Source: an uncultured Bacteroidales bacterium (GTDB lineage: Bacteria; Bacteroidota; Bacteroidia; Bacteroidales; Bacteroidaceae). Taken from it: a stretch of 32,719 bases of DNA. A program made the translations under genes and the position numbers. The DNA is taken from NCBI GenBank assembly GCA_945787885.1, contig CALZJF010000028.1, positions 1-32,719 on the forward strand, written 5' to 3'. The notes beneath the pieces are model-generated. The model was not told the origin of the DNA. It searched no databases and saw only the letters and a list, made by a program, of their open reading frames with translations. This document shows, piece by piece, positions 2,620 through 30,308 of this stretch. Each line of letters opens with the position of its first letter. Within the stretch, counting starts at the first letter, position 1.

Positions 2620-2702
2620 ATTGTTCTTTGGAGTTTTGGTGGGTGAATATGTTCTGCCTCCTACGCACGCAGTTCCTGATAAGGCATGCTTGTTGGTGCT
2701 TT

Positions 2703-4283
2703 TTAGTATTGTGCAGCCACTTCTGCTGCCACCTTCGTAAGAATGGCGGTCACTTCATCAGTGAGTTTTCCAGCAGAGAGAACGGCAAGCACATCATCGG
2801 CATGGGATGCACGGAGCGTACTGAGGAACATATCCTGAAAATCACGGACTTTATTGATAGGCACATTGGCAAGCAAGCCCTTTGTACCACAATAGAGTAT
2901 AGCAACTTGTTCGCCTACTGGCATCGGAGAATATTGTGCCTGAACAAGCAGCTGGTTGTTCTTGCGTCCGCGGTCAATGGTCATGGCTGTGACGGGGTCC
3001 ATATCGCTGGAGAACTTTGAGAAGGCTTCCAACTCGCGATACTGTGCCTGGTCGATTTTCAGCGTTCCTGCCACTTTCTTCATGGATTTTATCTGTGCGC
3101 TACCACCCACACGTGATACGGAGATACCGACATCGATGGCAGGACGGAAACCCTGGTTGAAGAGATTGGAGTCAAGATATATCTGACCGTCAGTAATTGA
3201 AATGACATTCGTAGGAATATAGGCAGAAACGTCGCCAGCCTGAGTCTCAATGATGGGGAGAGCCGTGAGAGAACCACCGCCTTTGACCATTCCCTTCATA
3301 CATTCAGGCAGGTCGTTCATCTGCTGAGCTACTTCGTTTTGGGCATTGATCTTTGCTGCACGCTCCAGCAGGCGAGAGTGGAGATAGAACACATCGCCAG
3401 GATATGCCTCACGTCCAGAAGGACGGCGAAGAATCAGCGAAACTTCACGATATGCTACAGCCTGCTTCGAAAGGTCATCATAAACCACCAAGGCATGCTT
3501 TCCCCGGTCACGGAAGAACTCACCAATTGCAGCACCAGCCATCGGAGCATAATACTGCAATGCAGCACTTTCTGACGCCGTAGCACTAACGACGATGGTA
3601 TAATCCATCGCGCCATGATTCTTGAGCGTCTCAACAATGTTTGCCACTGTAGAGGCCTTCTGACCGATAGCCACATAGATGCAATATACGGGGTCACCTG
3701 CCTCGTAGCATTGACGCTGGTTAATGATGGTATCAATAGCTATGGCGGTCTTACCCGTCTGACGGTCACCGATGATTAACTCGCGCTGTCCGCGTCCGAT
3801 AGGAATCATGGAGTCCACACTCTTCAGACCCGTGGCAAGCGACTCTGTCACAGGCTGTCGATAGATTACTCCAGGTGCTTTACGGTCAAGCGGCATGAGG
3901 AATTTCTCTCCCTCAATCTGTCCGCCGCCATCAAGAGGCTGACCAAGAGGATTGATGACGCGTCCGACGAAATTATCGTTGACCAAGATGGATGCAACGC
4001 GACGTGTACGCTTGACACTCTGACCCTCTTTGATGCCTTCGGAACTTCCCAAAAGCACGGCTCCTACGTTGTCCTCTTCAAGGTTCATGGCAACGCCCAT
4101 TACGCCGTTCTCGAATTCGAGAAGTTCATTTTCCGTGACCTTTGTCAGTCCGTATATACGTGCTACACCGTCGCCCACGGTCAAAACGACACCGACTTCT
4201 TCAAACTTAACGTCAGTGGCCAGGTCTTTGAGTTGCTGAAGCAAAACGTCAGAAACTTCGCTTGGCTTTATGTTATTAGGCAT
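2703..4283 (-). CDS. atpA: ATP synthase F1 subunit alpha
   Basis: The 526-residue non-catalytic nucleotide-binding subunit of F1 has a Walker A motif GDRQTGKT at 172-179. The arginine finger that completes the beta active site is at about R390 (SVSRVGG). The N-terminal beta-barrel and C-terminal helical domains are complete. Relative to common alpha subunits there is an insertion of roughly 15-20 residues around 314-334 ([20 protein letters not shown]) before GGGSLTALP. Such inserts may be a Bacteroidota trait; I cannot check this here. It lies between atpH and atpG, with a 138-nt gap to atpH in which I see no feature. Confidence 0.98.
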
Positions 4284-4421
4284 ATTCTTTTGTTAAAATG
4301 TATTTGTGGTGTATAGAACACCCCTTTAGGCTGTAAATAAATGCTTTCAGAGACGTACCGTCAGCTTACTTTTTAAGGGTGAACCCTGTCTGTTAGTCAG
4401 AGAAAAGACTTTTTGTCTGTC

Positions 4422-4973
4422 TCAGTTGGTCTTCGCAACAAGGTTTCTACGCAAGGTCTCTAATTGTCCTTTCAGACTTGCATCCAACCTGTTGTCACCA
4501 TACTGAAGAATAAATCCACCCTTAATCTCAGGGGCAATCTTTATCTTCATTTCGATAGTCTTCTGCGTACGTGCTTCTACGATAGCCTGAATCTTTTCTT
4601 TGAGCTTTTCCGACACAGGGTGCGCCAGCGTTAATGAGCCACTAAGGATGTTGTTGGCAGTCTCGTAATGCGCAGCGTAGCTTGTCGCGATGAATTGCAT
4701 GATATTTTCGCGTCTATGACTAATGCAGAGCTCTACAAACCTCTTTGTCGAGATGCTGACCTCCTGCTCCGTTTTCGCCGCGGCAACGAGTAGCATCGCC
4801 TTTTTCTCCTTGGAAAGCGTTGGATTTTGTAGGGCATGCGTCAGCATAGGCAGATTGGTAAAAGATGCCACCATCTGTTGCATCTCCTGATAAACCTGCT
4901 TTGCCTCCTCATTCTCATCGGCAAATCGCAGAAGTGCTTTGGCATATCTCGAGGATACAATTCCTATGTCCAT
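4422..4973 (-). CDS. atpH: ATP synthase F1 subunit delta
   Basis: This 183-residue subunit sits on top of F1 and links it to the peripheral stalk b subunits. The N-terminal helical bundle begins with the typical ISSRYAKALLRFA-like segment (residues 5-18). The C-terminal domain carries the family pattern around PEIKGGFILQYGDNRLDASLKGQLETLR. It starts 14 nt after the atpF stop, in the usual b-delta-alpha-gamma order, so translation is probably coupled. Length is normal for the family. Confidence 0.95.
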   Translation of the reverse strand: MDIGIVSSRYAKALLRFADENEEAKQVYQEMQQMVASFTNLPMLTHALQNPTLSKEKKAMLLVAAAKTEQEVSISTKRFVELCISHRRENIMQFIATSYAAHYETANNILSGSLTLAHPVSEKLKEKIQAIVEARTQKTIEMKIKIAPEIKGGFILQYGDNRLDASLKGQLETLRRNLVAKTN

Positions 4974-4987
4974 TGCGGTTTGTTTGA

Positions 4988-5497
4988 TTATTTCTCGATT
5001 TTATCAAGAAGGCTGTTGATATAGGTTTCCTGCTTGTAGTCATCCTTGAGCTGCTCCATGACGAGTTGTTCTGCAATTTGGATAGAAAGCTCTGCTACCT
5101 GCGAACGTATTTCGCGAAGTGCATTCTCTTTTTCCACTTGGATTTGAGCTTTGGCCTCCTGCAGAAGTTTTTCGCCTTCTGCGCTGGCCTTTGCTTTTGC
5201 CTCCTTTATCATTGCGTCACGAGTTGCCATAGCGTCCTTCACGATTTTCGCTTGCTCTTCGCGTGCCTCGCACAGGATTTTCTCGCCTTTCGCTTGGATA
5301 GAAGCCAATTCCTCATTGGCTTTCCTGGCATTGGTCAAGCTCTCACTAATGAATTGCTGCCGTTCCTCCACCATTTTGATAATAGCAGGAAATCCGAACT
5401 TCGCAAGTATCAGGAGAACGATGATGAATGCCAAAGCCATCCAGAAGATTAGGCCTATATCTGGAGTGAGCATTCCGGGCAAATTCATTGACTCCAT
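4988..5497 (-). CDS. atpF: ATP synthase Fo subunit b
   Basis: This is the 169-residue peripheral stalk subunit. One N-terminal membrane helix (about residues 13-33, GLIFWMALAFIIVLLILAKF) is followed by a long, highly charged, Ala/Glu/Lys-rich helix (35-150) expected to form the right-handed coiled coil of the b dimer. The C terminus would contact delta. It lies between atpE, with a 225-nt gap, and atpH. Only one b-type gene is present, so a b2 homodimer is expected. Confidence 0.96.
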   Translation of the reverse strand: MESMNLPGMLTPDIGLIFWMALAFIIVLLILAKFGFPAIIKMVEERQQFISESLTNARKANEELASIQAKGEKILCEAREEQAKIVKDAMATRDAMIKEAKAKASAEGEKLLQEAKAQIQVEKENALREIRSQVAELSIQIAEQLVMEQLKDDYKQETYINSLLDKIEK

Positions 5498-5722
5498 TAT
5501 GAGGTTTCAATTATATATTATAAATATCTTCGGGGGAGAAGGTGGAATTTGACAGGAATTAACAGAAGAATTGCTATCTAATCCACCACTCTTTTAGCTT
5601 AACTGCAGTAAAAGCTAATTAATGGAATAGGATGGTGGGGATTACATCGTGATTTCTGAGAATAAATTTTCAGAGCACATTCTGACATTGCGATGCAATC
5701 CCCCAACCTCCTATCAGGGCTG

Positions 5723-6028
<306 letters not shown>

Positions 6029-6051
6029 TTATGTTATCGGGGAGAGATATT

Positions 6052-7146
6052 TTACGCCTTGTGCTCATGCACGGGATGTGAGAGTCCGATAAACACGGCT
6101 GAGAGAAGGGTGAAGACGTAAGCCTGCACGAAAGCAACGAGGCACTCCAAAAAGTTCATGAAGAGAATCATGACAAAACTCATTATCGTCATGCCGCCAC
6201 CTACAACGTAGGACATCCATCCGCCCATCGCGCACGTCACAAAGATGATGGCGAGGAAGGAGAGGATGATGGCATGGCCAGCCATCATGTTGGCGAAGAG
6301 ACGCACCATGAGTGCAAAAGGCTTGGAGATGATGCCAAACATTTCTATCACAGGCATGATGGCTATAGGATAGAATTTCAGCATTACTGGCACATCGGGC
6401 CAAAAGATTTCCTTCCAGTATTCCTTGTTGCCGGAAAGGTTAATAGCCAGCATGGTGCAGAAAGCCAAAAAGAACGTGATGTTGATATTGCCTGTCACGT
6501 TAGCACCTCCTGGCACAAGACCTAAAAGGTTGCTGACAAGGATAAAGAAAAATACCGTAAGGAGATAAGGAACAAAGGGGCGATAATGCTTTTCGCCTAC
6601 GCATGGTTTAATCAGGTCGTTCACGAGATACATGACCAGAGCCTCCATCATTCCTACGAATCCTCCAGGAGCATCCTCTTTTGAGTTATGGCCTTTTGCC
6701 CATCTGGCACAGCCGAGGAAGACGACAATCAGAATAAGCGATGTCAGCAATATTTGCGACACGTTCTTGGTGATGGAGAAGTCAAGCGGACGAACAGACG
6801 TGCCATCAGAGAGCTGCTGGTAAATCTTGCCGTTCCTTTCTTCGTTGAAATAGAAGCCCTGATAGTTTGCCTCGCCATGCTCCATAGCCTCATGGATTTT
6901 CGAACTCATGAAGACTTTCCACTCATGCGTTTCCTCGTCCCGCACGATACAAGGAAGAGGAATCGTACCTTCGACATTCTCCGTAGCGAAGAAATGCCAT
7001 TCGTAAGCGTCGCCAAGATGCCCGAGCACGATTTCTTTCACATCTATTTCGCCCTCTGCAGCCTGCTTTCCCGAAGCGAAGGCAGAAGAAAACGAAAAGA
7101 ATGCTACCACGCTGTAAACAACGTATCGTAAGAAGTTGTGTATCAT
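6052..7146 (-). CDS. atpB: ATP synthase Fo subunit a (with N-terminal extension)
   Basis: This is the 364-residue stator subunit that forms the proton half-channels. The essential arginine is R282 in KPFALMVRLFANMMAGH, and the C-terminal helices are conserved. It is about 90 residues longer than the E. coli subunit. The N terminus looks like a signal peptide (residues 1-24, cleavage near AFAS), followed by a charged soluble segment of about 100 residues before the first core helix at about 130-148, so that segment should be periplasmic. I know similar extensions from Bacteroidota a subunits. The start overlaps the previous stop by one base (TAATG), pointing to coupled translation. Confidence 0.95.
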   Translation of the reverse strand: MIHNFLRYVVYSVVAFFSFSSAFASGKQAAEGEIDVKEIVLGHLGDAYEWHFFATENVEGTIPLPCIVRDEETHEWKVFMSSKIHEAMEHGEANYQGFYFNEERNGKIYQQLSDGTSVRPLDFSITKNVSQILLTSLILIVVFLGCARWAKGHNSKEDAPGGFVGMMEALVMYLVNDLIKPCVGEKHYRPFVPYLLTVFFFILVSNLLGLVPGGANVTGNINITFFLAFCTMLAINLSGNKEYWKEIFWPDVPVMLKFYPIAIMPVIEMFGIISKPFALMVRLFANMMAGHAIILSFLAIIFVTCAMGGWMSYVVGGGMTIMSFVMILFMNFLECLVAFVQAYVFTLLSAVFIGLSHPVHEHKA

Positions 7147-7541
7147 TAGGATAATGTGTTATTCTTACTCTCTTCCTTCATGTGTATGATGGTGGTGAAC
7201 ACCAAAGAGACGATGAAGCAGATGAAGATATTTGAAGTAAATGCTATTAGACCAGGAAATTGCGCCAAGCCGTAAAGGACGATGACAAGAAGGCTGACGA
7301 GGAATCGAACGCCTTTTGCTGCTATCAAGACCCCAGGAAGAGAGCGTACGCGATGTTTTCTGAAGTAGTCTGCAATCCCTATTTCGCCCATAGTGAGCGC
7401 AAAGAAAATCACTGCTGCGCAAAGCAGTCCACGTGCAATGATGACGGGGTCCGTGTCAGTCAGCAACGTCTCTGCATAGAGAAGCAGGGGGCAAAGCAAC
7501 ACGAAGACCAGCGACAAAGCAAGTATTCTTTTGATTTGCAT
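7146..7541 (-). CDS. Small membrane protein inside the ATP synthase cluster
   Basis: This 131-residue protein has a hydrophobic N terminus and three further hydrophobic stretches (about residues 36-58, 73-96 and 98-120), and a short charged tail. I do not recognise a named family. Its place between atpC and atpB, with a one-base overlap with atpB and 21 nt from atpC, matches where other bacteria keep AtpI/AtpZ-type assembly factors for the c ring. A similar assembly or membrane-insertion role is an inference from position only. No AtpI signature can be read with confidence. Confidence 0.8.
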   Translation of the reverse strand: MQIKRILALSLVFVLLCPLLLYAETLLTDTDPVIIARGLLCAAVIFFALTMGEIGIADYFRKHRVRSLPGVLIAAKGVRFLVSLLVIVLYGLAQFPGLIAFTSNIFICFIVSLVFTTIIHMKEESKNNTLS

Positions 7542-7562
7542 GGTTGTGAAATCAGGGGAACT

Positions 7563-7823
7563 TTATTCTTCGCTTATCTGTGGCTCGACACAGATAGAGA
7601 CATTGTTCGCGTTGACATCAATAAATCCTCCTACGATATCAACCTCCACGGTCTCCTTTGCCATGCACTTCACCGTTCCCTCCGAAAGCGAGGAAATGAT
7701 AGGCGCATGATTATAGAGCACTTCGAAAGATCCTTTCTCGCCCGGCACCTGCACACACTGGGCAGGCCCATTGTAGATAACCTTTTCGGGAGATACGATT
7801 TTCACCTGAAGAGCTTTTTCCAT
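7563..7823 (-). CDS. atpC: ATP synthase F1 subunit epsilon (short form)
   Basis: This 86-residue protein is the N-terminal beta-sandwich domain of epsilon (VKIVSPEKVIYNGPA, then GSFEVLYNHAPIISSL and GGFIDVNANNVSICVE), which binds gamma and the c ring. The usual C-terminal two-helix domain of about 45-50 residues is absent and the frame ends cleanly in PQISEE. In E. coli and Bacillus that domain inhibits ATP hydrolysis, so this enzyme should lack that control. I know short epsilon subunits from other Bacteroidota. It follows atpD after a 183-nt gap. Confidence 0.94.
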   Translation of the reverse strand: MEKALQVKIVSPEKVIYNGPAQCVQVPGEKGSFEVLYNHAPIISSLSEGTVKCMAKETVEVDIVGGFIDVNANNVSICVEPQISEE

Positions 7824-8006
7824 ATTCGTATGGTGGGTTTAGGTGGGTTGGCTATCATTCCGTCCCCACATTTATTAACCTCTTTGACGGTGGGAAATAA
7901 GAAGCCCACCAAAGTATGGTTCAATAGATATTTCTGCAGGAATAAGGTTTTGCCAGCAAACACTCCTGCAATCACACACGAATGCTTGCTGACACCTTTC
8001 CTTGTC
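7824..8006 (-). other. atpD-atpC intercistronic gap with hairpin
   Basis: This 183-nt gap is long for a cluster whose other genes are mostly close. On the transcript a 6-bp stem GGTGGG/CCCACC (7889-7894 and 7905-7910, with flanking CTTTG/AAAG partly extending it) has no U run after it. It could be a processing or attenuation site that tunes the beta:epsilon ratio, or only a stabilising hairpin. An 83-codon open frame crosses the gap but overlaps both neighbours and has no recognisable content. Confidence 0.4.
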
Positions 8007-9569
<1,563 letters not shown>

Positions 9570-9600: not shown

Positions 9601-10578
9601 TCAGATACTCAGTTCGTCCAAGACTTTGATGAGCTGCGGGTCCATATCCTTTCGTTTCTGCACAGCTTCTATGAAAGGCACATACACCACATCATTGTTC
9701 CTGATGCCCACCATCACATTTCTCTGTCCCTGTATCAAGGCCGTGATGGCTCCCACGCCTACGCGACTTGCCAGAATGCGGTCGCGGGCGGACGGCGTTC
9801 CGCCACGCTGCAAATGGCCCAGAATCGAGACGCGCACGTCAAACTGCGGGTATTCCTTCTTTACACGGTCTGCATAATAGAGAGCACCACACTTGGGACT
9901 CTCCGACACAATGACCATGCAGCTTTTCTTTGACTTTCTGATGCCGCGGCTCATAAATTCTATCAGCTGGTCAGCGCCCGTAGTGTCTTCTGGAATAATG
10001 GCCGCTTCTGCGCCTGCTGCGATGGCACTGTTTTGCGCCAAGAATCCAGCATCGCGCCCCATGACTTCTATAAAGAAAATGCGCTCATGGGAGTTCGCCG
10101 TATCACGAATTTTATCAACACAGTCCATGATGGTATTCAGCGTCGTGTCGTAGCCAATGGTGTTGTCTGTTCCGTAAAGGTCGTTGTCAATAGTTCCCGG
10201 CAGTCCGATACAGGGATAATCATACTCCTCAGCCAATTTCATTGCACCCGTAAGCGAACCATTTCCGCCGATGACAATCAGCGCGTCGATACCTTCTCTC
10301 ATCAAAGTGTCATAAGCTCTCTTTCTCCCTTCCGGTGTCTGAAAATCCTTCGAACGTGCCGTACGCAATATCGTACCGCCAGTCTGGATGATGTTCGAAA
10401 CATCCTCTGTCGTAAAGGTTTTCACCTCACCATTCATCAATCCTTCATATCCACGATAAATGCCTTTCACCTTCAGCCCATTGCTGATAGCACTGCGTGT
10501 CACTGAACGTATTGCTGCATTCATGCCAGGAGCATCACCTCCTGAAGTAAGAACGCCTACACATCGAATTCTTGCCAT
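9601..10578 (-). CDS. pfkA: 6-phosphofructokinase
   Basis: The 325-residue enzyme phosphorylates fructose 6-phosphate to the 1,6-bisphosphate. The nucleotide-binding [10 protein letters not shown] (11-20) and catalytic PGTIDND (127-133, base D131) are present. Gly at 107 (GGNGS) and Gly at 128 (PGTIDN), where PPi-dependent enzymes carry Asp and Lys, predict ATP as phosphoryl donor. The position equivalent to E. coli D103, which helps bind Mg-ATP, is Asn here (N106). The fructose-6-phosphate site MGRDAGF (168-174) is intact. It sits 61 nt upstream of atpD on the same strand, so glycolytic and oxidative ATP-making genes may share a transcript. Confidence 0.95.
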
Positions 10579-20091: not shown

Positions 20092-21048
20092 ATGTCGTTT
20101 TTTAGCAAACTCTTCTCGAAGAAAGAAAAGCAGGAGGTGTTGGACAATGGGCTGAAAGCCACGAAGACCAGCTTCTTCGACAAAATCACGCATGCCATTG
20201 CAGGAAAGTCGAAAGTCGATGACGAAGTTCTCGACGAACTGGAAAACGTGCTCATCACATCCGACGTAGGCGTTGATACCACACTGGAGATTATTCGCCG
20301 CATTGAGGAGCGTGTGGCGCGCGACAAATATGTCTCTACCTCTGAGCTCAACGGCATCCTCCGCGAGGAAGTAATGAATCTGCTGGTGCAAAGCGGCAAC
20401 GACGGCGAAGAGGGCTACGAAATCCCTGCGGAGAAGCGTCCGTACGTCATCCTCGTAGTGGGCGTCAATGGCGTGGGCAAGACAACGACCATCGCCAAAC
20501 TTGCCTATCAATTCAAATCTGGGGGAATGAAAGTCGTGCTCGGTGCTGCCGACACATTCCGCGCTGCTGCCATCGAACAGCTATGTCTCTGGGGCGAGAG
20601 AATCGGCGTGAACGTGGTGAAACAGAAGATGGGGGCCGACCCTGCCTCCGTGGCATACGACACCTTGGCGCATGCTCGCGCCGAGAATGCCGATGTGGTC
20701 ATCATTGACACGGCAGGACGATTGCACAATAAGGTAGGACTGATGGACGAACTTACGAAAATCAAGAAGGTGATGCAGAAACTCCTGCCCGATGCACCGC
20801 ATGAGGTGCTGCTCGTGCTCGATGGCTCTACGGGCCAGAATGCCTTTAATCAGGCAAAGGAGTTCGTCAAAGCCACCGATGTCACTGCTCTCGCCATCAC
20901 GAAGCTCGATGGCACGGCGAAGGGTGGCGTCGTCATCGGCATCAGTCATCAGCTGAAAGTCCCGGTGAAATACATCGGCCTGGGCGAAAAGATGACTGAC
21001 CTTCAGCCCTTCGACCGCACCGCCTTCGTACAATCTCTCTTCTCATAG
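20092..21048 (+). CDS. ftsY: Signal recognition particle receptor FtsY
   Basis: This 318-residue SRP GTPase docks SRP-ribosome complexes at the membrane. The short N-terminal part (1-40) is basic, with MSFFSKLFSKKEK as a possible membrane-targeting helix; the long acidic A domain of E. coli is absent. The N domain (about 40-110) precedes the GTPase: G1 GVNGVGKT (124-131), DTFRAAAIEQL (154-164), G3 DTAGR (206-210), and TKLDGTAKGG (270-279). The protein is of minimal Bacteroidota length. It is followed 21 nt later by rimO, probably co-transcribed. The upstream leader carries a dispersed repeat and an 18-bp palindrome. Confidence 0.97.
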   Translation: MSFFSKLFSKKEKQEVLDNGLKATKTSFFDKITHAIAGKSKVDDEVLDELENVLITSDVGVDTTLEIIRRIEERVARDKYVSTSELNGILREEVMNLLVQSGNDGEEGYEIPAEKRPYVILVVGVNGVGKTTTIAKLAYQFKSGGMKVVLGAADTFRAAAIEQLCLWGERIGVNVVKQKMGADPASVAYDTLAHARAENADVVIIDTAGRLHNKVGLMDELTKIKKVMQKLLPDAPHEVLLVLDGSTGQNAFNQAKEFVKATDVTALAITKLDGTAKGGVVIGISHQLKVPVKYIGLGEKMTDLQPFDRTAFVQSLFS

Positions 21049-21069: not shown

Positions 21070-22404
21070 ATGAAACATACAATCGACGTCATCACAATGG
21101 GCTGTTCTAAGAATCTGGTAGATTCGGAAAACCTCATGCGGCAGTTTGAAGCCATCGGCTACGCCTTCTATCACAATCCCGAAGAGCTGCACGGCGACAT
21201 TGCCGTCATCAACACCTGCGGCTTCATCGGTGATGCCAAGGAAGAAAGCATAGCTGAGATTTTAGACCTTTGCGCACGCAAGGCAGACGGCGAGATAGAG
21301 CGCGTCTTCGTCATGGGATGCCTCTCCGAACGCTACCGCAAGGAGCTGCAGGAGGAAATGCCCGAGGTAGATCGGTTTTATGGCAAATTCGACTGGAAGG
21401 AGATGGTGGCAGACCTCGAACGCGAGGCATCTGAAAGCCAGCAGTCGCCTACGCCATGTGCAGGATGCCATGGAACAGAAACCTCCACCCTTCACACCAC
21501 GGGCCACTACGCCTATCTGAAAATCAGCGAGGGCTGCAACCGCCAGTGTGCCTACTGCGCCATACCCCTCATCACGGGGCGACACACGAGCCGCACGATG
21601 GAGGATATTCTCGACGAGATGAGACGCATGGTGGAAGCCGGAGTCCACGAATTTCAAATCATCGCTCAGGAACTCACCAGCTATGGCCTCGACCTCTACC
21701 ATGAGCGCAAGATTGCAGAACTCGTGGAGCGCATGGCGCAGATTCCCGGCGTAGAATGGATTCGCCTCCATTATGCCTATCCCGCACAGTTCCCAATGGA
21801 CTTGCTGCGCGTCATCCGCGAGAACGACAACGTCTGCAAATATCTCGACATCGCTCTGCAGCACATCTCTGACGGCGTGTTGGAACGTATGCACCGCCAT
21901 ATCGACCGTGCAGAGACCTTGCGCCTCATTGACCGCATTCGCGAGGAAGTGCCGGGCATCTGCCTGCGCACAACGCTGATGGTGGGATTCCCCGGGGAGA
22001 CGGAGGCTGACTTTGAAGAGCTGAAAGACTTTGTTCGGCAGGCGCGCTTCGAGCGCATGGGAGCTTTTGCCTACAGCGAAGAAGACGAGACCTATGCCGC
22101 CACTCATTATACCGACGATGTCAGCGAGGAGGTGAAGCAGGAACGCCTCACGCAACTGATGGCCATCCAGCAGGACATCTCTGCCGACGTTCTGGAACAG
22201 ATGGTGGGAAAGGTCTGCAAGATAGTCATCGACCGCCGCGAGGGAGAATGGCTGATAGGACGCACGGAATACGACAGTCCGGAGGTGGACTGCGAGGTGC
22301 TGATACCGTATGCTGAAGAATGCCAGACGGGGCATTTCTATCAGGCTCGCATCACGAAAGCCGAAGAGTTCGACCTCTACGGCGAAATCGTTGTCAATTC
22401 TTAA
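21070..22404 (+). CDS. rimO: Ribosomal protein S12 methylthiotransferase RimO
   Basis: This 444-residue radical SAM enzyme adds a methylthio group to the conserved Asp of ribosomal protein S12. The N-terminal UPF0004 domain provides cluster cysteines C12 (GCSKNLVDSE), C50 (NTCGF) and C84 (MGC). The radical SAM motif CNRQCAYC uses C156, C160 and C163. A C-terminal TRAM domain (about 380-444) completes it. The GCSKNLVDSE signature separates RimO from MiaB. An extra CAGC pair (C130, C133) lies in the linker before the radical SAM domain; whether it binds anything is unknown. It follows ftsY and precedes two HU-type genes. Confidence 0.96.
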   Translation: MKHTIDVITMGCSKNLVDSENLMRQFEAIGYAFYHNPEELHGDIAVINTCGFIGDAKEESIAEILDLCARKADGEIERVFVMGCLSERYRKELQEEMPEVDRFYGKFDWKEMVADLEREASESQQSPTPCAGCHGTETSTLHTTGHYAYLKISEGCNRQCAYCAIPLITGRHTSRTMEDILDEMRRMVEAGVHEFQIIAQELTSYGLDLYHERKIAELVERMAQIPGVEWIRLHYAYPAQFPMDLLRVIRENDNVCKYLDIALQHISDGVLERMHRHIDRAETLRLIDRIREEVPGICLRTTLMVGFPGETEADFEELKDFVRQARFERMGAFAYSEEDETYAATHYTDDVSEEVKQERLTQLMAIQQDISADVLEQMVGKVCKIVIDRREGEWLIGRTEYDSPEVDCEVLIPYAEECQTGHFYQARITKAEEFDLYGEIVVNS

Positions 22405-22458: not shown

Positions 22459-22734
22459 ATGACCAACAAAGAATTCATAGCCGAACTGGCGAAACGGACA
22501 GAAACTTCTTCAAAAGACTGCCAGCAACTCGTGGAAAAACTGATAGAAATCATGGCTGACGCCTTGGACGATGGCGACACCATCAATGTGCAGGGCTTCG
22601 GAAGTTTTGAAACGAAGAAGAAGACGGAACGCGTCATCGTCAATCCTGCCACCAAACAGCGCCAACTGATACCGCCCAAACTCACGGTGGGCTTCAAACC
22701 GAGCACGGTGCTGAAAGAAAAAATCAGGAAATAA
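22459..22734 (+). CDS. HU/IHF family DNA-binding protein
   Basis: This 91-residue protein is typical of the HU/IHF fold: helices MTNKEFIAELAKRTETSSKDCQQLVEKLIEIMADALDDGD, then INVQGFGSFE and the DNA-clasping arm with VNPATKQRQLIPPK, which keeps the intercalating Pro. It ends with FKPSTVLKEKIRK. An upstream in-frame ATG (22411) would add 16 residues not seen in the family, so 22459 is chosen. It starts 54 nt after rimO and ends 15 nt before the HU-LysM gene, so the two HU-type proteins are probably made together and could form a heterodimer (inference). Confidence 0.93.
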   Translation: MTNKEFIAELAKRTETSSKDCQQLVEKLIEIMADALDDGDTINVQGFGSFETKKKTERVIVNPATKQRQLIPPKLTVGFKPSTVLKEKIRK

Positions 22735-22749
22735 CGCCACTCACTGAGC

Positions 22750-24327
22750 ATGAACAACAAGATACTTCTGCAACAACTGACCGACGCATTGGCGGCGCGT
22801 GCAGGCATCACCAAACGTAAAGCCGATGCCTTCGTACGTGCCTTCTTCGATGTGGCTGAAGAGGGCCTGACGACGGAGGCTTTTCTGAAAATCAAGGGCT
22901 TTGCAACGTTCAAGATCATCACCGTCAGTGAGCGCGAAAGCGTGAACATCAACACGGGAGAGCGTTTCCAAATCAACGGTCACGAGAAGATTAGCTTCAC
23001 GCCCGATACGGCTTTCAAGGAACTGGTGAACCGTCCGTTCAGCCATTTCACCACCATCAATCTCGAAGACGACCTCGACCTCAGCGAATGGGAAGGCATG
23101 TCGAACTTCGCAGAAGAGGAATCGGAGCGCGCTGAAAACCCGTCTGCCGACGCTGCGGAAATCGACGAGACTACAGAAACACTGACGGAAGAGGCGGCAG
23201 AAACACTGACGAATGGCTCTGCTGAGCCTTCGGCTGTTACGGAAAATCCGATAGAAATAGCCGAGTCGTCGGAAAACGAGGAGCCTTCCACACTCGTGGA
23301 AATGGCAGATTCTGAGACTGTTAGCGAAGCCGGCGAACAGTCTGAGGCGGCTGAGATTGCAGAGCTGGGAGCTGCACTGGCAGAAGCTGTTTCTGCAGAA
23401 CCGACCATCGTTTCTGAGGTATCACACCCCGAAGAAAAAGCTGACGACGGCAAGGAAGAAGGAAAAGAAGAATCTGTAGAAACGGCTGAAGAATCTATAG
23501 GAACTGCTGAAGAATCTGTAGAAACGGCTGAAGAATCTATAGGAACTGCTGAAGAATCTGTAGGAACTGCGGAAGAATCTATAGAAGCTGCTGAAGAATC
23601 TGTAGGAACTGCGGAAGAATCTACTGAAACTGCTGAAGGCTCTGAAGTAGCAGAAACCGAAGAAGAGCCTCTGCTGCAGGCGCAAGGAAACGCGGTGCCA
23701 CAGCATGAAAGCGAGGAGAAACCTGCCATCGTCATCAACAACACGCTGCCCGAGCAGAAGCACAACGGATGGCGAACGGCATGCGTAGTTATCGGCGTAC
23801 TCCTGCTGATGGCCATGAGCTACTTTGTAGGCTACTACCGCCTGCTGTGTCCTTGCTACACGGATTTTCTCTTCACCCCCACTCCGTCTGAAGAGACAGC
23901 AGCCCCCGCCCGTCAGCAGACGGCTGCAGAAACTCCGAAAGCAAAAGCAGAAAGCTCAACCACACAAACCTCTGCTCCGCAGACGACTGCCAAAGATTCG
24001 ACCACGAAGGCTGAAAACACACAGCAGAAGACTGAAACACCACAGCCAAAAGCTACCGACTCTCAGACCGCTGCCCAAAATCGCCGAAAGGCTGAGTTGG
24101 CTGCCGCAAAGAAATATCGACAAACCTCTGGGCCGTATCTCATCACGGGTGTCGTGCGCACACACGTCATGGCTCCTGGCGACAATCTCTACCTGCTCGC
24201 CAAGAAAGAATACGGCAACAAGGATATGGCATCCTATATCATCTTCCACAACCAACTGAGCAACCCTGACCTCATTCAATTGGGACAAAAGATTGAAATT
24301 CCGCGCCTAACGCCCAAGGAGGAGTAA
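22750..24327 (+). CDS. HU-like DNA-binding, single-TM, LysM domain protein
   Basis: This 525-residue protein has an unusual layout. Residues 1 to about 97 are HU/IHF-like (helices, LKIKGFATFKI, arm with NINTGERFQI, then FKELVN); the Pro that normally intercalates into DNA is replaced by Ile in the arm. Residues 100-335 are highly acidic, with eight copies of a seven-residue unit (ES[VI]xTAE) at 241-296. One membrane helix lies at about 343-363 (CVVIGVLLLMAMSYFVGYY). A Thr/Gln/Lys/Pro-rich linker (370-455) leads to a C-terminal LysM domain (472-518, VMAPGDNLYLLAKKEYG). The expected topology is HU in the cytoplasm and LysM in the periplasm, linking nucleoid and peptidoglycan. That role is inference. 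It follows an HU gene by 15 nt. Confidence 0.9.
   Translation: MNNKILLQQLTDALAARAGITKRKADAFVRAFFDVAEEGLTTEAFLKIKGFATFKIITVSERESVNINTGERFQINGHEKISFTPDTAFKELVNRPFSHFTTINLEDDLDLSEWEGMSNFAEEESERAENPSADAAEIDETTETLTEEAAETLTNGSAEPSAVTENPIEIAESSENEEPSTLVEMADSETVSEAGEQSEAAEIAELGAALAEAVSAEPTIVSEVSHPEEKADDGKEEGKEESVETAEESIGTAEESVETAEESIGTAEESVGTAEESIEAAEESVGTAEESTETAEGSEVAETEEEPLLQAQGNAVPQHESEEKPAIVINNTLPEQKHNGWRTACVVIGVLLLMAMSYFVGYYRLLCPCYTDFLFTPTPSEETAAPARQQTAAETPKAKAESSTTQTSAPQTTAKDSTTKAENTQQKTETPQPKATDSQTAAQNRRKAELAAAKKYRQTSGPYLITGVVRTHVMAPGDNLYLLAKKEYGNKDMASYIIFHNQLSNPDLIQLGQKIEIPRLTPKEE
23470..23637 (+). repeat. 21-bp in-frame tandem repeat in the HU-LysM gene
   Basis: Eight units of 21 bp encode ES[VI/T]xxAE heptads. 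Units 1 and 3 are identical, as are units 2 and 4, so a 42-bp block duplicated recently. Later units differ by a few bases. Because units are multiples of three, copy changes would only lengthen or shorten the acidic spacer before the membrane helix. Confidence 0.92.
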
Positions 24328-24433
24328 GGAAAACGCTGGAGCGACTGACTATTTGTACGGCTGCAACACGCCCGTATGCAACGTTCGCCTCTCCTGCGCT
24401 GATTGAATTTGCAATCTCTCGCATAGCAAAACG

Positions 24434-24464
24434 AAGGCTTCCGCATACAGGAAGCCTTTTTTTT
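24434..24464 (+). terminator. Terminator after the HU-LysM gene
   Basis: AAGGCTTCC (24434-24442) pairs with GGAAGCCTT (24450-24458) and is followed by a run of eight T. Confidence 0.9.
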
Positions 24465-24607: not shown

Positions 24608-25453
24608 ATGATTAGCATCAATCACCTCAACTTCCGCTACAATTTCCATCGTCCGCCAGTCTTTACGGACTTCTCTCTGGAAATTGGCGATGGCCAAATC
24701 ATCGGGCTATTAGGAAAGAACGGCACAGGAAAATCCACCCTGCTCTATCTCATCTGCGGTCTGCTCTACGACAAGAAACACAGCGTCAGCATTGACGGCA
24801 TTCCCTCACACGAACGACGTCCCGAAACACTGCAACGGCTCTTCATCGTGCCAGAAGAGTTTGAACTCCCTCCCATCAGCATCCGCCAGTATGCGAAGAC
24901 ACACAGCGGATTCTATCCCAACTTCTCAGAGAAAGTGCTTGAAGATACACTCCGGGAATTTGAACTCTCGCCCGACATACACCTCGGAAGCCTCTCGATG
25001 GGACAAAAGAAAAAGGCGTACATCAGCTTTGCGCTGGCAGCGCAGACGGACTATCTGCTGCTCGACGAACCGACTAACGGTCTGGACATTCCGAGCAAAT
25101 CGCAGTTCAGAAAGGTCGTGGCCAGCCAGATGACGGAACAGCGCACCATCATCATCAGCACGCATCAAGTACACGATGTAGAGATGCTGACCGACCGCGT
25201 AGTGCTGCTCGCAGAAGACCGTCTGCTGCTCGATGCCAGCCTCAACGACATCGCCGAACGCCTGCGCTTCGAGGTGCGCCCCGTGGGAGCCGACCTCTCA
25301 GATGCCCTCTACATAGAGCCTTCGATTGCTGGAACATTGGTGGTTGCTCCTGCCAATGGCTTTAGCGACACCACCACCGTCAATCTGGAACTCCTCTTCA
25401 ACGCCTTGACGCAAAATCCGGAAGTCGTCAAAACTCTGACGCAGCCTTCCTAA
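24608..25453 (+). CDS. ABC transporter ATP-binding protein
   Basis: This 281-residue ABC ATPase has Walker A GKNGTGKST (36-44), signature LSMGQKKK (129-136), Walker B LLLDEP (150-155) with D-loop NGLD, and switch His H186 (STHQ). The Q-loop region is IVPEEF rather than a clear Gln-containing motif. A C-terminal extension of about 80 residues (200-281) follows the ATPase core. It resembles ATPases of exporters regulated by YtrA-type GntR proteins in which a separate six-helix membrane subunit follows. The operon order is ATPase, membrane protein, regulator, DUF2807. A palindrome overlaps its promoter. Substrate unknown. Confidence 0.92.
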   Translation: MISINHLNFRYNFHRPPVFTDFSLEIGDGQIIGLLGKNGTGKSTLLYLICGLLYDKKHSVSIDGIPSHERRPETLQRLFIVPEEFELPPISIRQYAKTHSGFYPNFSEKVLEDTLREFELSPDIHLGSLSMGQKKKAYISFALAAQTDYLLLDEPTNGLDIPSKSQFRKVVASQMTEQRTIIISTHQVHDVEMLTDRVVLLAEDRLLLDASLNDIAERLRFEVRPVGADLSDALYIEPSIAGTLVVAPANGFSDTTTVNLELLFNALTQNPEVVKTLTQPS

Positions 25454-25484
25454 AAAATCCTTTACACTCATCTATATATATAAT

Positions 25485-26318
25485 ATGCAGAACTTCAGCC
25501 TCAGACGCACCCTGATGCTCGTGCGCCGCATTATCACCACTGACCCGCAACGCTGGCGAAACTATGCGCTACTCATCTATTTGGCCTACGCCATACCCTC
25601 CATCTATCTGCTGAACAGCACCCGGCATCTGCAGCCTCTCTATCTGAACGACATGCTCGCCAACAGCGCGTCGGCAGCAAACACCATCAGCATTATCCTC
25701 TCCATGCTGGCAGCATCGCTCACGTTCAAGTGTATGAACTCTAAGACAAAACGCCTTGACTTCCTGACACTTCCTGCCACTCACCTGGAGAAATTCGTCA
25801 GCCTACTGCTGGTCTATGTCATACTCTTCCAGATCGTCAACTTCCTGGCTTTCCTGCTGGCCGACCTGACCCAATATTTATTCTTCCTCGTGCAGGGAGT
25901 GAATGCAGGATTCATGCTGCCCCTCTTCTCGTCCAACTTTTCGGGCATCAGCATCGCTCGCGACAGCATGCTGTTCACACAGGGCGAACACATCTGGCAG
26001 ATAACGCTCATCCTGTATCTTGCCACCATCTGCCGCATTGCCACCTTCATCTTGGGCAGTGCCATCTTCCGCCGTCAGGCGTTCGTGCTCACCATACTCT
26101 TCTTCTTCGTCACCGGCATGGGGCTTCTGACCTTAGTCATCCTCCCACTTGACGACGTACTGATACTGAACCTGGATTTCATACGCAAAATCGATGCTGG
26201 CACAATATGTAACGCCATTATCCTTGCCGAACTGGCTTGGACGACAGCATGCTGCTGGCTCAGCTATAGAATGTTTGCGAAAGCCAGCGTCATCACTTCG
26301 AAAAACATTGGGTTCTGA
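25485..26318 (+). CDS. ABC transporter membrane subunit (ABC-2-like)
   Basis: The 277-residue protein has about six hydrophobic helices (about 27-45, 65-83, 103-130, 166-190, 201-225 and 246-264). The N terminus is basic and cytoplasmic in appearance (MQNFSLRRTLMLVRRIITTDPQRWRN). I cannot assign a named family by motif, but directly following an ABC ATPase (31 nt) and preceding its GntR regulator makes it the permease partner. With the ATPase it would form a dimeric exporter or envelope-stress transporter; the substrate is unknown. Confidence 0.8.
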   Translation: MQNFSLRRTLMLVRRIITTDPQRWRNYALLIYLAYAIPSIYLLNSTRHLQPLYLNDMLANSASAANTISIILSMLAASLTFKCMNSKTKRLDFLTLPATHLEKFVSLLLVYVILFQIVNFLAFLLADLTQYLFFLVQGVNAGFMLPLFSSNFSGISIARDSMLFTQGEHIWQITLILYLATICRIATFILGSAIFRRQAFVLTILFFFVTGMGLLTLVILPLDDVLILNLDFIRKIDAGTICNAIILAELAWTTACCWLSYRMFAKASVITSKNIGF

Positions 26319-26380
26319 CACTCAGACATTCATTCCTACCCCCACTCTTCTCCTTGATTGACTCATTTACTGAAGGAACT

Positions 26381-26743
26381 ATGAATTTCAGAGAAACATG
26401 CCCCATCTATCTCCAGATATCCGACCGACTGATGGACGAAATACTGGCGGGGAAATATGCCCCCGATGAGCGCATACCCGGTGTGCGCGACTACAGCGTA
26501 CTGCTACAGGTGAACGTGAACACCACGACAAAGGCGTTCGACCAACTCCGGCAGCGCGGCATCATCTATGACAAGCGCGGTCTGGGATGCTTCGTCAGCC
26601 CTGATGCCATACAGCGCATACTCAGCATACGCCGCGATGCCTTCTTCAACGAATGGATTCCCGACATCGCACAGGCTATCCGGCAACTCGGCATCACCAC
26701 GGATGAACTCCTCAGCCATCTCGAACAATGCAATGAAGCATAA
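26381..26743 (+). CDS. GntR family regulator, YtrA-like
   Basis: This 120-residue protein has an N-terminal winged helix of the GntR type (PIYLQISDRLMDEILAGKYAPDERIPGVRDYSVLLQVNVNTTTKAFDQLRQRGIIYDKRGLGCFVS, residues 5-70). A short helical tail of about 50 residues follows, too small for a ligand-binding FadR/HutC domain. That layout is the YtrA subfamily, usually repressors of their own ABC operons. An in-frame ATG at 26354 would add nine residues without family likeness, so 26381 is chosen. It is the third gene of the operon, and a concentric palindrome at the promoter is its likely binding site. Confidence 0.9.
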   Translation: MNFRETCPIYLQISDRLMDEILAGKYAPDERIPGVRDYSVLLQVNVNTTTKAFDQLRQRGIIYDKRGLGCFVSPDAIQRILSIRRDAFFNEWIPDIAQAIRQLGITTDELLSHLEQCNEA

Positions 26744-26779
26744 ACAAGCATCATACACACACACTTCATCATACATCTT

Positions 26780-27535
26780 ATGTTTCAGAATTTCATCCAT
26801 ACGCTTACCGTGGTAGCTGCCATGCTCAGCGCAACATGCCTCATCTCCTGCAAAGAAAAGAAAAGCCGCTTCGAAACCTTCGAGGTGCCTGCCACAATGG
26901 TGCATTCCATAGAAGCGCGCTCGGGCATCAATGTGGTCTATGAACAAAAAGAGGGGGAGCCGAAGGTGAGCGTCAACTGCGACACCCTCATCACTCCGCT
27001 CCTCTCCGTCAATGTCATCGACGGAAAACTCATAGCGACATACAAAGACGAAAACCACATACCCCGAGGCAACGTGACTGTAAACGTCGTGGCACCCGCC
27101 GTGGCTACTTACAAAGCTGAAATGGGGGCAGAAATCAAGGCGAAAGAAGGTGTAGAAATCACGGGCAACGTGGAAATTGAAGCCAACACGGCTGGTTACG
27201 TGCGTTTCGGAGCCGGACTGAAATGCCAGAAGGCCCGCATCGTGGCACAAAACACAGGCAAAGTCACGCTGAAAAAGATGGAAATCGACGCCACCGAGGT
27301 GAAAGCCACGACGGCAGCCTACGTCATTCTCGAGGGAAACACCCAGATGCTGCAATACAATCGTGGTACAACGGCTGACATCGTGCATAAGAAACTAACG
27401 ACCAACCGTATAGACTCCCTAAAAACAACGGAGCCTTACAACTATCCGCCACCCAAAAAGCAGAAGCAGAAGCCTCAACCATCAAAACCGCAGCCTGCCA
27501 CCAAGGACTCCGTGCCCCAAAAGCCTGCGGCATGA
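26780..27535 (+). CDS. DUF2807 (head GIN domain) lipoprotein
   Basis: This 251-residue putative lipoprotein has a signal peptide with lipobox ending LISC (C24). The core (about 35-215) is a repetitive beta-rich domain of the DUF2807 type: FEVPATMVHSIEARSGINVVYEQ, then VNVIDGKLIATYKDE, VTVNVVAPAVATYKAEMGAEIKA. A Pro/Lys/Gln-rich tail (PPPKKQKQKPQPSKPQPATK) could reach through or bind envelope polymers. Function of the family is not established; it is common in Bacteroidota envelopes. It is the last gene of the ABC-GntR operon, 36 nt after the regulator, so it is probably induced by the same envelope signal. A terminator follows. Confidence 0.85.
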   Translation: MFQNFIHTLTVVAAMLSATCLISCKEKKSRFETFEVPATMVHSIEARSGINVVYEQKEGEPKVSVNCDTLITPLLSVNVIDGKLIATYKDENHIPRGNVTVNVVAPAVATYKAEMGAEIKAKEGVEITGNVEIEANTAGYVRFGAGLKCQKARIVAQNTGKVTLKKMEIDATEVKATTAAYVILEGNTQMLQYNRGTTADIVHKKLTTNRIDSLKTTEPYNYPPPKKQKQKPQPSKPQPATKDSVPQKPAA

Positions 27536-28172: not shown

Positions 28173-28207
28173 CAAAATTATGAATTTCAGCCTTGAAACG
28201 ACAATTA
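28173..28207 (-). promoter_or_regulatory. Promoter candidate for rnpB
   Basis: TAATTTTG on the minus strand (28173-28180) is a good -7 box. TTGT lies 20 nt upstream (near 28201-28204). It lies about 110 nt before the predicted mature 5' end, so either a leader is trimmed or a weaker, nearer promoter is used. Confidence 0.45.
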
Positions 28208-28223
28208 AAAGAAAATTATTTCC

Positions 28224-28231
28224 TAATTTTG
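28224..28231 (+). promoter_or_regulatory. Promoter -7 box for the DUF5103 gene
   Basis: TAATTTTG lies 32 nt before the ATG at 28264. No clear -33 TTTG is at the normal distance. It is divergent from the rnpB promoter candidate 44 nt away. Its position rules out the more upstream in-frame ATG at 28180 as start. Confidence 0.55.
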
Positions 28232-28263
28232 CACGCAAAACAATCACTTTTCGCCAACTCAAC

Positions 28264-29547
28264 ATGACTGATTCCCAACGCTGGCTTTCGATGCTCAGCA
28301 TCCTTCTGACTCTCTGCGGCGACGCCTCTGCCCAGCAGGCGCGCATACTGGGAGGTATAGCCTCTCTGCGAACGGAGATTGGCGGACAGCTCGTCGGGAT
28401 GCCTGTGCTGAAATTGGCATCAGGCGAGACGATGGAGGTCAGTTTTGACGAACTGAGCCACGACTATCACCGTTTCGTCTATCGGCTCGAACATCTCGAC
28501 CGCTTCTGGCAACCATCTGATGGGCTCTTCTTCACGGAATATGCTGAGGCCACTCAGACGGATGTGCCTATCGAGACCTATACGGAGAGCCAAAATGTCA
28601 GTACGAACTACACCCACTACTCTTTCAGTTTTCCCAACTCAGACATGCGGCCGCTGCTTTCGGGCAACTATCGGCTGACCATCCTGGCAGACGATGATGA
28701 GCTGCGCCCCGTGGCAGAGGTTTATTGCTGCATGACTGAGACCGCCGTCGGCATCAATGGCACCGTGACGACTGATACGGAGATTGACTACAACGGGCAG
28801 CATCAGCAAGTGGTTTTCAACGTGGATTGTGCACAGCTCCCCGCACGCGACTACCGCGAGGACTGCTACACCGTAGTACTTCAGAACGACCGTTGGGACA
28901 ATGCTGTCTGCGGAGCACCACCGACGTCGATTCATGCCGACCGCATGGAGTGGAGCCATCAACGCCAACTGGTGTTCCCCGCTGGAAATGAATACCGGAA
29001 ATACGAACAACTCTCACCGCGATATGCCGGACTGAATGTAGAATCAGTAGGATGGTTCGAGCCGTGGCTCCATGCCACCATCGCCACGGACGATATTCGG
29101 CGCAACTATCTGACCTACGAAGACCAAAACGGAACGAGCGTCATTCGAAACACGGACAACGTATATGATGAGACGGAGACGGAATATATGATTACGCATT
29201 TCGCCCTTCATGCCCCCGAACCTTTTGAAGATGCGCGCGTCTATCTGAATGGCCGATGGACAACGGGGGGCATTTCACCGCAATGGGAACTGACCTATAA
29301 TCCCGACAGCCAATGCTACGAGGGAGCCTTCATCATGAAGCAGGGATATTATGACTATCAATACCTCGTCGTACCCAACGGAATGGCTCTACCCGCACCT
29401 GCCACCATCAGTCTGACGGCAGCGACAGAGGGCGACTTCTACCAGACAGAAAACGAATACCGCATACTTGTCTATTTTTCACTGCCCGGCGACCGCTACG
29501 ATCGCCTCGTCGGTGCATCGCGGCTGAAGAAGGGGGCGTTGCAATAA
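28264..29547 (+). CDS. DUF5103 protein, type IX secretion plug-like
   Basis: This 427-residue exported protein has a signal peptide at 1-23 (cut near ASA-Q). It has the pattern of DUF5103, with an N-terminal domain (about 35-150) containing LEVSFDEL-like and YRLEHLDRFWQPSDGLFFTEYAEATQT segments. A C-terminal part has beta-rich FALHAPEPFEDARVYLNGRWTTGGISPQWELTYNPDSQCYEGAFIMKQGYYDYQYL, like a carbohydrate-binding or Ig-type fold. The family includes the plug that closes the SprA translocon of the type IX secretion system. Other T9SS genes are not in the window. The start is fixed by the promoter box at 28224. Confidence 0.85.
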   Translation: MTDSQRWLSMLSILLTLCGDASAQQARILGGIASLRTEIGGQLVGMPVLKLASGETMEVSFDELSHDYHRFVYRLEHLDRFWQPSDGLFFTEYAEATQTDVPIETYTESQNVSTNYTHYSFSFPNSDMRPLLSGNYRLTILADDDELRPVAEVYCCMTETAVGINGTVTTDTEIDYNGQHQQVVFNVDCAQLPARDYREDCYTVVLQNDRWDNAVCGAPPTSIHADRMEWSHQRQLVFPAGNEYRKYEQLSPRYAGLNVESVGWFEPWLHATIATDDIRRNYLTYEDQNGTSVIRNTDNVYDETETEYMITHFALHAPEPFEDARVYLNGRWTTGGISPQWELTYNPDSQCYEGAFIMKQGYYDYQYLVVPNGMALPAPATISLTAATEGDFYQTENEYRILVYFSLPGDRYDRLVGASRLKKGALQ

Positions 29548-29609
29548 TGCCTCTGTCCAGCTTTTCCATCATTTCCCCTATCATTCTTCAGCCTCCCCCT
29601 CCCTACACC

Positions 29610-30308
29610 ATGAACTATTTCACCTTCGAACCTTTCATCAATTATAGCCAGAGCTTCGACCTGCAACTGATACACCAATGGTTTGTCAGCAGTTTGGACT
29701 ATATCGGCACGCTGGCATTTGCCATCTCTGGCATCCGCCTGGCCTCCGCAAAGAATTTCGACCTCTTCGGTGCCTACGTCATGGGCCTTGCCACTGCCAT
29801 CGGCGGCGGAACCGTGCGCGACATCATGCTTGGGCTGCCCATCTTCTGGATGCAGCACGGCGAGATATATTTCAGCATCGTCGCAGCAGCCTTGATTTTA
29901 GTATGGCTCTTCCGCGAACACGTAGTACGCCGCGACAACACTTGGTTTCTATTCGACACCGTGGGTCTTGGCATGTTCACCGTCATCGGCATCGAAAAAG
30001 CACTGGGAGCGGGACAGCCGATGTGGGTGGCGATGATGATGGGAGCCCTGACGGGAGCAGGCGGCGGCGTCATCCGCGATGTCTTCCTGAATGAAATTCC
30101 CCTTATCTTCCGAGCAGAAATCTATGCCTTGGCGTGCCTCATCGGAGGTTTGTTCTACTGGGTAGGCACGCAGCTTCATCTTTCCCCCGTGACGTGCGGT
30201 TTTGCCTGCGGTGCCAGCGTCATCCTGACGCGCATACTCGCCGTGCGCTACAATCTCCATCTGCCCGTCTTGCATAGCAGCGAGGGAAACTCAGACTTCC
30301 CGGCATGA
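29610..30308 (+). CDS. TRIC (UPF0126) family membrane channel
   Basis: This 232-residue membrane protein has the two-fold repeated GGG motif of the family: GGGTVRD and GGGVIRD, each at the bend of a helix. Seven hydrophobic helices follow an N-terminal amphipathic part. Prokaryotic TRIC proteins form trimeric cation-selective channels; some UPF0126 members have been linked to glycine uptake, so the substrate is open. An in-frame ATG at 29547 overlapping the previous stop would add a Pro/Ser-rich, unconserved 21 residues; 29610 is preferred. It follows the DUF5103 gene by 62 nt, probably in the same transcript. Confidence 0.9.
   Translation: MNYFTFEPFINYSQSFDLQLIHQWFVSSLDYIGTLAFAISGIRLASAKNFDLFGAYVMGLATAIGGGTVRDIMLGLPIFWMQHGEIYFSIVAAALILVWLFREHVVRRDNTWFLFDTVGLGMFTVIGIEKALGAGQPMWVAMMMGALTGAGGGVIRDVFLNEIPLIFRAEIYALACLIGGLFYWVGTQLHLSPVTCGFACGASVILTRILAVRYNLHLPVLHSSEGNSDFPA

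Follow-up and report, generated by a model that had tools for sequence, protein, structure and literature searches.

We identified a conserved two-gene system of Bacteroidota, in which a small HU protein is encoded directly ahead of a longer protein that joins an HU domain to a LysM domain through one membrane helix. It was found in a stretch of 32,719 nucleotides (the window) from an uncultured Bacteroidales bacterium (contig CALZJF010000028.1). This HU-TM-LysM system is real, conserved and under-described. Among the matches listed from the openly licensed PMC literature, which omits most subscription journals, there was no paper on it. To our knowledge, little is known about chromosome placement and segregation in Bacteroidota, the dominant human gut bacteria. 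A function between chromosome and wall was plausible and was our best guess, with about an even chance of being right. If true, a conserved two-gene system would join the nucleoid and the wall directly. The genes and the parts of the longer protein were located in the window as follows.

20092 to 21048, plus strand: ftsY, upstream neighbour (TIGR00064, 1.8e-107), also found in two annotated records
21070 to 22404, plus strand: rimO, conserved upstream neighbour (TIGR01125, 5.8e-134)
22459 to 22734, plus strand: partner HU gene, 91 aa, with the arm KKKxER..VNPxTKQRxLxPPK (PF00216, 1.2e-25, aa 1-89), a member of a dedicated clade
22750 to 24327, plus strand: gene for HU, acidic spacer, transmembrane helix and LysM, uninterrupted from ATG to TAA, 525 aa
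22771 to 23031, plus strand: HU domain, aa 8-94, from the PF00216 match and alignment
23029 to 23049, plus strand: N-x-P-F-x-x-F motif, aa 94-100, right behind the HU domain, from aligned rows
23050 to 23769, plus strand: acidic spacer of variable length, predicted on the cytoplasmic side (73 D/E and 7 K/R over 242 aa)
23467 to 23638, plus strand: tandem repeat of 21/42 nt inside the spacer, with EESxxTA units (TRF score 239/267)
23776 to 23832, plus strand: single transmembrane helix, about aa 343-361, from hydropathy and flank charges
23833 to 24162, plus strand: linker rich in T, Q, A and P, predicted periplasmic from its sequence
24163 to 24303, plus strand: LysM domain, about aa 472-518, from profile matches
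24433 to 24459, plus strand: candidate terminator-like stem with a T run, 3' of the gene, from a consensus scan that gave 6 sites in the region with 5.5 expected by chance

The initial annotation had read the longer gene as one frame for an HU-like domain, an acidic repeat-rich spacer, a hydrophobic helix and a LysM domain, and its coordinates and domain limits were correct. The 525-aa protein matched PF00216 as a whole domain at aa 8-94 with an E value of 1e-17. IHF and HU were its nearest solved chains in phmmer (best E 2e-8), and PF00216 was also matched in 57/57 aligned rows of membrane HUs. The arm of the window's membrane HU was RESVNINTGER in the alignment, with Ile67 at the arm position that we took to be the site of the intercalating proline. 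In the motif right behind the domain, the N, the P and both F residues were invariant in 57/57 aligned rows. The spacer was of low complexity and ranged from 37 to 498 aa among 76 relatives, with a median net charge of −34. The order of HU, helix and LysM was no chance product, since it recurred in relatives at 23-51% full-length identity and also in a distant family (f46). A chance fusion or an assembly artefact was ruled out by this conservation, which covered 80/80 of the best 80 of at least 554 relatives and 16/16 loci of f46.

The 525-aa protein contained only one hydrophobic stretch, which started at aa 343 and had a mean hydropathy of 2.2. Its LysM region was under the Pfam cut-off (E 0.067, 13.6 vs 20.9 bits). 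The SafA/ExsA model matched aa 475-518 with an E value of 3.8e-5, at 23.5 bits and thus below the whole-protein cut-off of 67.85 bits. A family LysM profile built from 20 sequences matched the solved LysM structures of Ecp6 (9e-15) and SafA (1.7e-6). It also matched 76/76 complete relatives, and 57/57 when the sequences used in building were left out. PF01476 was matched at E ≤ 0.01 in 34/57 membrane-HU rows, and on these profile matches the region was counted as a LysM domain of the PF01476 family.

The HU domain had been placed inside and the LysM domain outside, and this placement agreed with the residues around the helix. More K/R residues stood before the helix than after it in 58/76 relatives (equal in 12, fewer in 6), and the 15 residues before it held a mean of 3.1 K+R vs 1.4 after. 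The trend was similar in f46, where the means were 3.2 before and 0.9 after, with more before the helix in 15/16 proteins, equal numbers in one and fewer in none. By eye, no signal peptide-like N terminus was seen in the 525-aa protein. The flank charges and the N terminus together fit an N-in, C-out topology, with HU probably cytoplasmic and LysM probably periplasmic. A signal peptide with HU outside was rejected on the same two observations.

The partner HU gene ended with its stop codon 15 nt ahead of the ATG of the membrane HU. It had been suggested that conservation of this pair would support a heterodimer, and the pair was found to be conserved. A partner HU lay directly upstream in 80/80 loci (the best 80 of at least 554 relatives), in 16/16 f46 loci and in 17/17 two-gene loci of the Bacteroidales sample. 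It was also found in 29/30 loci of the first set of relatives; the thirtieth (L031) ended with its contig before the partner site, giving 29/29 visible sites. The gap between the two genes had a median of 11 nt over 79 loci, was 30 nt or less in 73, and was an overlap in 7. The f46 genes overlapped in 15/16 loci (14 by 4-11 nt, one by 1 nt), and the remaining pair had a gap of 2 nt. At E ≤ 1e-22, the partner profile matched 14 of 119 Bacteroidales genomes, each time at a gene adjoining the membrane gene and always within the 17 two-gene loci.

Linkage to rimO had been raised as a point to check, and rimO was upstream of the partner in 80/80 loci (best 80 of at least 554). Annotated records of Parabacteroides distasonis and Bacteroides finegoldii showed the order ftsY, rimO, HU and a longer HU protein, with both HU genes labelled 'HU family DNA-binding protein'. 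A match of the LysM region was seen in the P. distasonis record. In both records, an AAA/DUF58/(hypothetical or BatD)/VWA group lay downstream of the pair. The window differed at this place: an ABC ATPase, an ORF without a Pfam match, a GntR regulator and a DUF2807 protein were encoded behind the pair at 24608-27535 (plus strand). Elsewhere in the window, positions 1648-9539 (minus strand) held ATP synthase genes of the gamma, alpha/beta type, delta/OSCP and A chain kinds, together with another alpha/beta-type ORF with a V/A-type C-terminal domain. A phosphofructokinase ORF (9601-10578, minus strand) adjoined them. A type 9 secretion plug-domain protein (PF17116) was encoded beside a glycine-transporter family protein (PF03458) at 28180-30308 (plus strand).

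The distribution of the system was examined in several genome samples. The first profile search gave matches in 46/61 genomes (60 relatives and the window's own), some of which were plain HUs only. From these, 30 loci were read including the window's own; two of them (L012, L017) ended at the contig before LysM, and L031 was without a start. In the genome collection, at least 554 relatives were confirmed and the best 80 were kept as a named set. These best 80 of at least 554 came from Bacteroides (B. fragilis and B. faecis among them), Phocaeicola, Prevotella, Alloprevotella, Paraprevotella, Xylanibacter and uncultured relatives. Two of the records bore the names Pseudobutyrivibrio and Clostridium, and we took these for misnamed MAGs. 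A complete frame with the helix was present in 76 of the best 80 of at least 554, and L108 was also complete, with 433 aa and a LysM domain. Two further members (L048, L083) ran past the contig end. In L107 (MAG contig CALUIN010000036.1, 2489-3415), the HU-TM frame ended right behind the helix with no LysM; either this relative is truncated or its sequence contains a frameshift error. The pair was thus common in the window's genus-level group and in its Bacteroides and Prevotella kin.

In a sample of 119 Bacteroidales genomes, 28 matched the full-length profile, and one locus was read in each. There were 17 two-gene loci, one single-chain locus and ten of another kind. Nine of the ten (L168, L170-L176, L178) matched the LysM profile alone and were rejected as family members, and the tenth (L177) was rejected as, by eye, a tandem HU with a SPOR-like end. 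Presence in Bacteroidales was therefore patchy, at 18/119 sampled genomes. Across the phylum, 53 of 148 genomes matched the HU profile at E ≤ 1e-12. Outside the window's own genome, long-frame matches were found in 16 of these 148 genomes, all from f46, which is one family of the same phylum and a different class. The HU and HU-TM-LysM pair was present in 16/16 f46 genomes read, and rimO was not found within about 1.5 kb upstream of the pair in these 16 loci. In a second sample, at least 257 of 392 phylum genomes matched an f46-built profile, many of them through nothing more than short HU frames. The matches listed included 40 f46 genomes, of which 39 had E values no higher than 1.4e-51 and G472 had 8e-30; this count covers the listed genomes, and the 115 unmatched, unlisted ones may include further f46.

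An origin from a mobile element was rejected. Four plasmid records matched, all typed as non-mobilizable, and one was a 1.77 Mb Prevotella replicon. In the two of these records that were examined, the annotated ones of P. distasonis and B. finegoldii, the pair adjoined ftsY and rimO. A membrane-HU relative with 43% identity was also present in an unannotated 5.4 kb clone titled 'Bacteriophage sp.' (MT838299.1, L248), which may come from a bacterium and carry the phage title in error.

A tree was built from 97 columns of 89 HU domains, a selection of sequences with 21 membrane HUs and as many partners from Bacteroidales, 16 of each kind from f46, and 15 ordinary HUs. The membrane HUs of Bacteroidales and f46 formed one clade with a support of 99/97. 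Their partner HUs formed another (99/93), and the ordinary HUs were separate from both (91/86). The inner forks were unsure because of the few columns. The upstream gene had been called a canonical HU, and this description did not hold: it lay in the partner clade, and further HU genes were present elsewhere in the same genome. Since it belonged to a clade of its own, it appeared to be a dedicated partner and not a housekeeping HU. Both clades spanned the two groups, which meant that the pair was apparently old or had once been transferred between them, and the tree allows either.

The two HU domains were found as a natural fusion in another family of Bacteroidales (f116). One HU-HU-TM-LysM protein was matched in 35/38 of its genomes, and a second genus was matched weakly. 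All loci read (19/19) looked single-chain, rimO was directly upstream in 16/19, and no separate partner HU was found upstream of the 19 genes at E ≤ 1e-3. In 15 of the 19 loci, the two domains were compared by profile. The first HU was nearer to the partner profile (3.1e-12 vs 7.4e-6 for the membrane HU), and the second was nearer to the membrane-HU profile (4.1e-14 vs 1.7e-7 for the partner). On one example, Pfam found the first HU alone, below the cut-off (E 0.0024), and gave no LysM match, so the HU identity in f116 rests on the profile-profile comparison. This fusion was strong indirect evidence for a joint function of both HUs and suggested that the two chains act as a single unit, the simplest case being an HU dimer to which each contributes one half. 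Adjacency, co-occurrence, separate clades and a natural fusion were all observed for these putative subunits of an IHF-like heterodimer. The proposal that the upstream HU would be the dimer partner was supported by the conserved pairing and strengthened by the fusion. That the two HUs function together was well supported by these comparisons.

DNA binding was the weak link of a tether. In Bacteroidales, the partner HU had a mean net charge of +5.0, while 15 ordinary HUs from the same phylum averaged +4.1. It had 12 positions with at least 80% K/R (50 rows), and its arm proline was present in 78/79. The membrane HU was near neutral, with a mean net charge of −0.25, and had 11 such positions. 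Its arm (RESVNVNTGER) and the preceding strands were less variable than the helices (0.75-0.83 vs 1.86 bits). In the alignment, this arm was without most of the canonical arginines, as judged from the list of residues that we take to be the DNA contacts of the HU arm. The initial annotation had stated that the arm lacked the intercalating proline. This stood for the named set (best 80 of at least 554), where the site was occupied in 76/76 by Val (61) or Ile (15). It did not stand for the whole system, as the arm proline was kept in 16/16 membrane HUs of f46 and in one Bacteroidales locus (L166).

The charges in the other families were lower. The f46 subunits were slightly acidic on average (−1.1 and −1.4). 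In f116, the mean net charge was −3.5 for the first HU and −4.9 for the second, and most of the arm of the second was lost, with N-x-P-F still kept in 12/15. By eye, the arm was also shortened in two two-gene loci (L169, L179). HU-type DNA wrapping was thus probably not retained throughout the family, given the acidic HUs of f46 and f116 and the lost or short arms of f116, L169 and L179. In particular, f116 spoke against HU-type DNA binding being required everywhere. From this mixed evidence of charge and arm, a DNA tether was likely but not certain for the window's species, and less likely for f116.

Based on the above results, we propose that the adjacent genes would encode an IHF-like heterodimer of two HU subunits. 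Its small subunit would be soluble and, in Bacteroidales, would keep its conserved basic residues and arm proline. The large subunit would hold the other HU fold on a long, polyanionic spacer, cross the inner membrane once with N-in and C-out, and grip peptidoglycan through its LysM. A heterodimer with such a membrane pass and grip would hold DNA near the envelope by a flexible, wall-fixed tether, which might organise or position the nucleoid in Bacteroidota. We put a peptidoglycan-anchored heterodimer that tethers DNA to the envelope at slightly under an even chance. We hold more loosely, as a tentative extension, that in Bacteroidaceae and many relatives the dedicated heterodimer is a direct DNA-to-peptidoglycan tether that runs parallel to an HU-CCDC81-SPOR tether of the same cell and possibly replaces anchoring of the ParA or nucleoid-occlusion type.

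The main rival was a RodZ-like scaffold, in which the HU folds would be a protein-protein heterodimer module linking a division, elongation or secretion machine, and not DNA, to the wall. It would account for the acidic f116 domains with most of the second arm gone, the shortened arms of L169 and L179 and the acidic averages of f46. It would also suit the motif behind HU, which was invariant in 57/57 rows and kept as N-x-P-F in 12/15 single-chain rows. Burroughs and colleagues reportedly proposed in 2017 that the tandem-HU CCDC81 family abandoned DNA binding in eukaryotes, which would be a similar course. However, the basic and strongly conserved partner arm of Bacteroidales, the partner charge like that of an ordinary HU, and the arm with proline retained in 16/16 f46 membrane HUs argued against it, and we regard the scaffold as possible but doubtful. 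Even with DNA binding lost, an HU heterodimer as a membrane scaffold would be a notable reuse of a histone-like fold.

Two further functions were improbable. One was a transmembrane sensor with CadC/ToxR-like logic, in which LysM would read the state of peptidoglycan and the HU pair would alter local DNA architecture or transcription. The single pass with predicted N-in topology, a ligand domain outside and a DNA-binding-type domain inside were consistent with it. However, the spacer varied from 37 to 498 aa in 76 relatives and was of low complexity, so that it would transmit a signal poorly. No sequence-specific DNA domain was found by Pfam scan in the window's protein and 57 rows, and rimO and ftsY, which adjoin the pair, have housekeeping roles. 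The other, rated a touch lower still, was a HubP/FimV-like polar organiser, whose acidic cytoplasmic region, and not HU, would recruit clients while HU added a contact with the nucleoid. LysM, a single helix and an acidic repeat-rich cytoplasmic region are shared with HubP/FimV, but the domain order was reversed, no signal peptide was seen, and 57 relatives together matched 18 Pfam families, none of them FimV/TPR. The DNA tether remained the preferred reading.

The system was compared with known ones. The HTH of RodZ binds MreB, and the protein also has one transmembrane helix and a periplasmic region. By description and not by sequence, it resembles the membrane HU protein in its cytoplasmic DNA-binding-type fold, single helix and periplasmic region, and it differs in that HU, LysM and a partner gene stand here in place of the HTH. 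According to two papers (PMC8789113, PMC12918733), HubP binds partners mainly through acidic modules, its LysM is critical for its location, and in Vibrio ParA1 links it to the positioning of the chromosome. HubP/FimV shares with our protein an outside LysM, one transmembrane helix and a long acidic cytoplasmic region, but has its LysM N-terminally, a FimV/TPR C-terminus and no HU domain described. The 525-aa protein and 57 relatives gave no match to a FimV/TPR family, and their domain order was the reverse.

HU and IHF (PF00216) share with the pair the HU fold by profile and, as in IHF alpha and beta, two distinct subunits. In contrast, one subunit here is predicted to be anchored in the membrane and the wall and has an arm without proline in 76/76 named relatives, and both subunits lie in clades separate from the 15 ordinary HUs. 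The HU-CCDC81 and SPOR proteins of Bacteroidetes were reportedly connected with chromosome partitioning by Burroughs and colleagues in 2017. A protein of this kind, with a tandem HU and SPOR, was also encoded in the same genome (contig C22, L036:1465-2643, minus strand; PF18174 4.6e-26, PF18175 4.7e-14, SPOR 2.2e-8). PF18174 was matched in 107/119 Bacteroidales genomes, 103 over the cut-off, and these counts concern PF18174 alone, not SPOR. No PF18174 or SPOR match was found in the 525-aa protein or in the listed families of 57 rows. The window's system ends in LysM where those proteins have SPOR, its soluble HU partner is normally encoded by a gene of its own, and its membrane HU is of a different kind, matching PF00216 in 57/57 and PF18175 weakly in 35/57. 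With their tandem HU folds, hydrophobic stretch and C-terminal peptidoglycan-binding domain, the HU-CCDC81-SPOR proteins are the closest described kind to the HU-TM-LysM pair.
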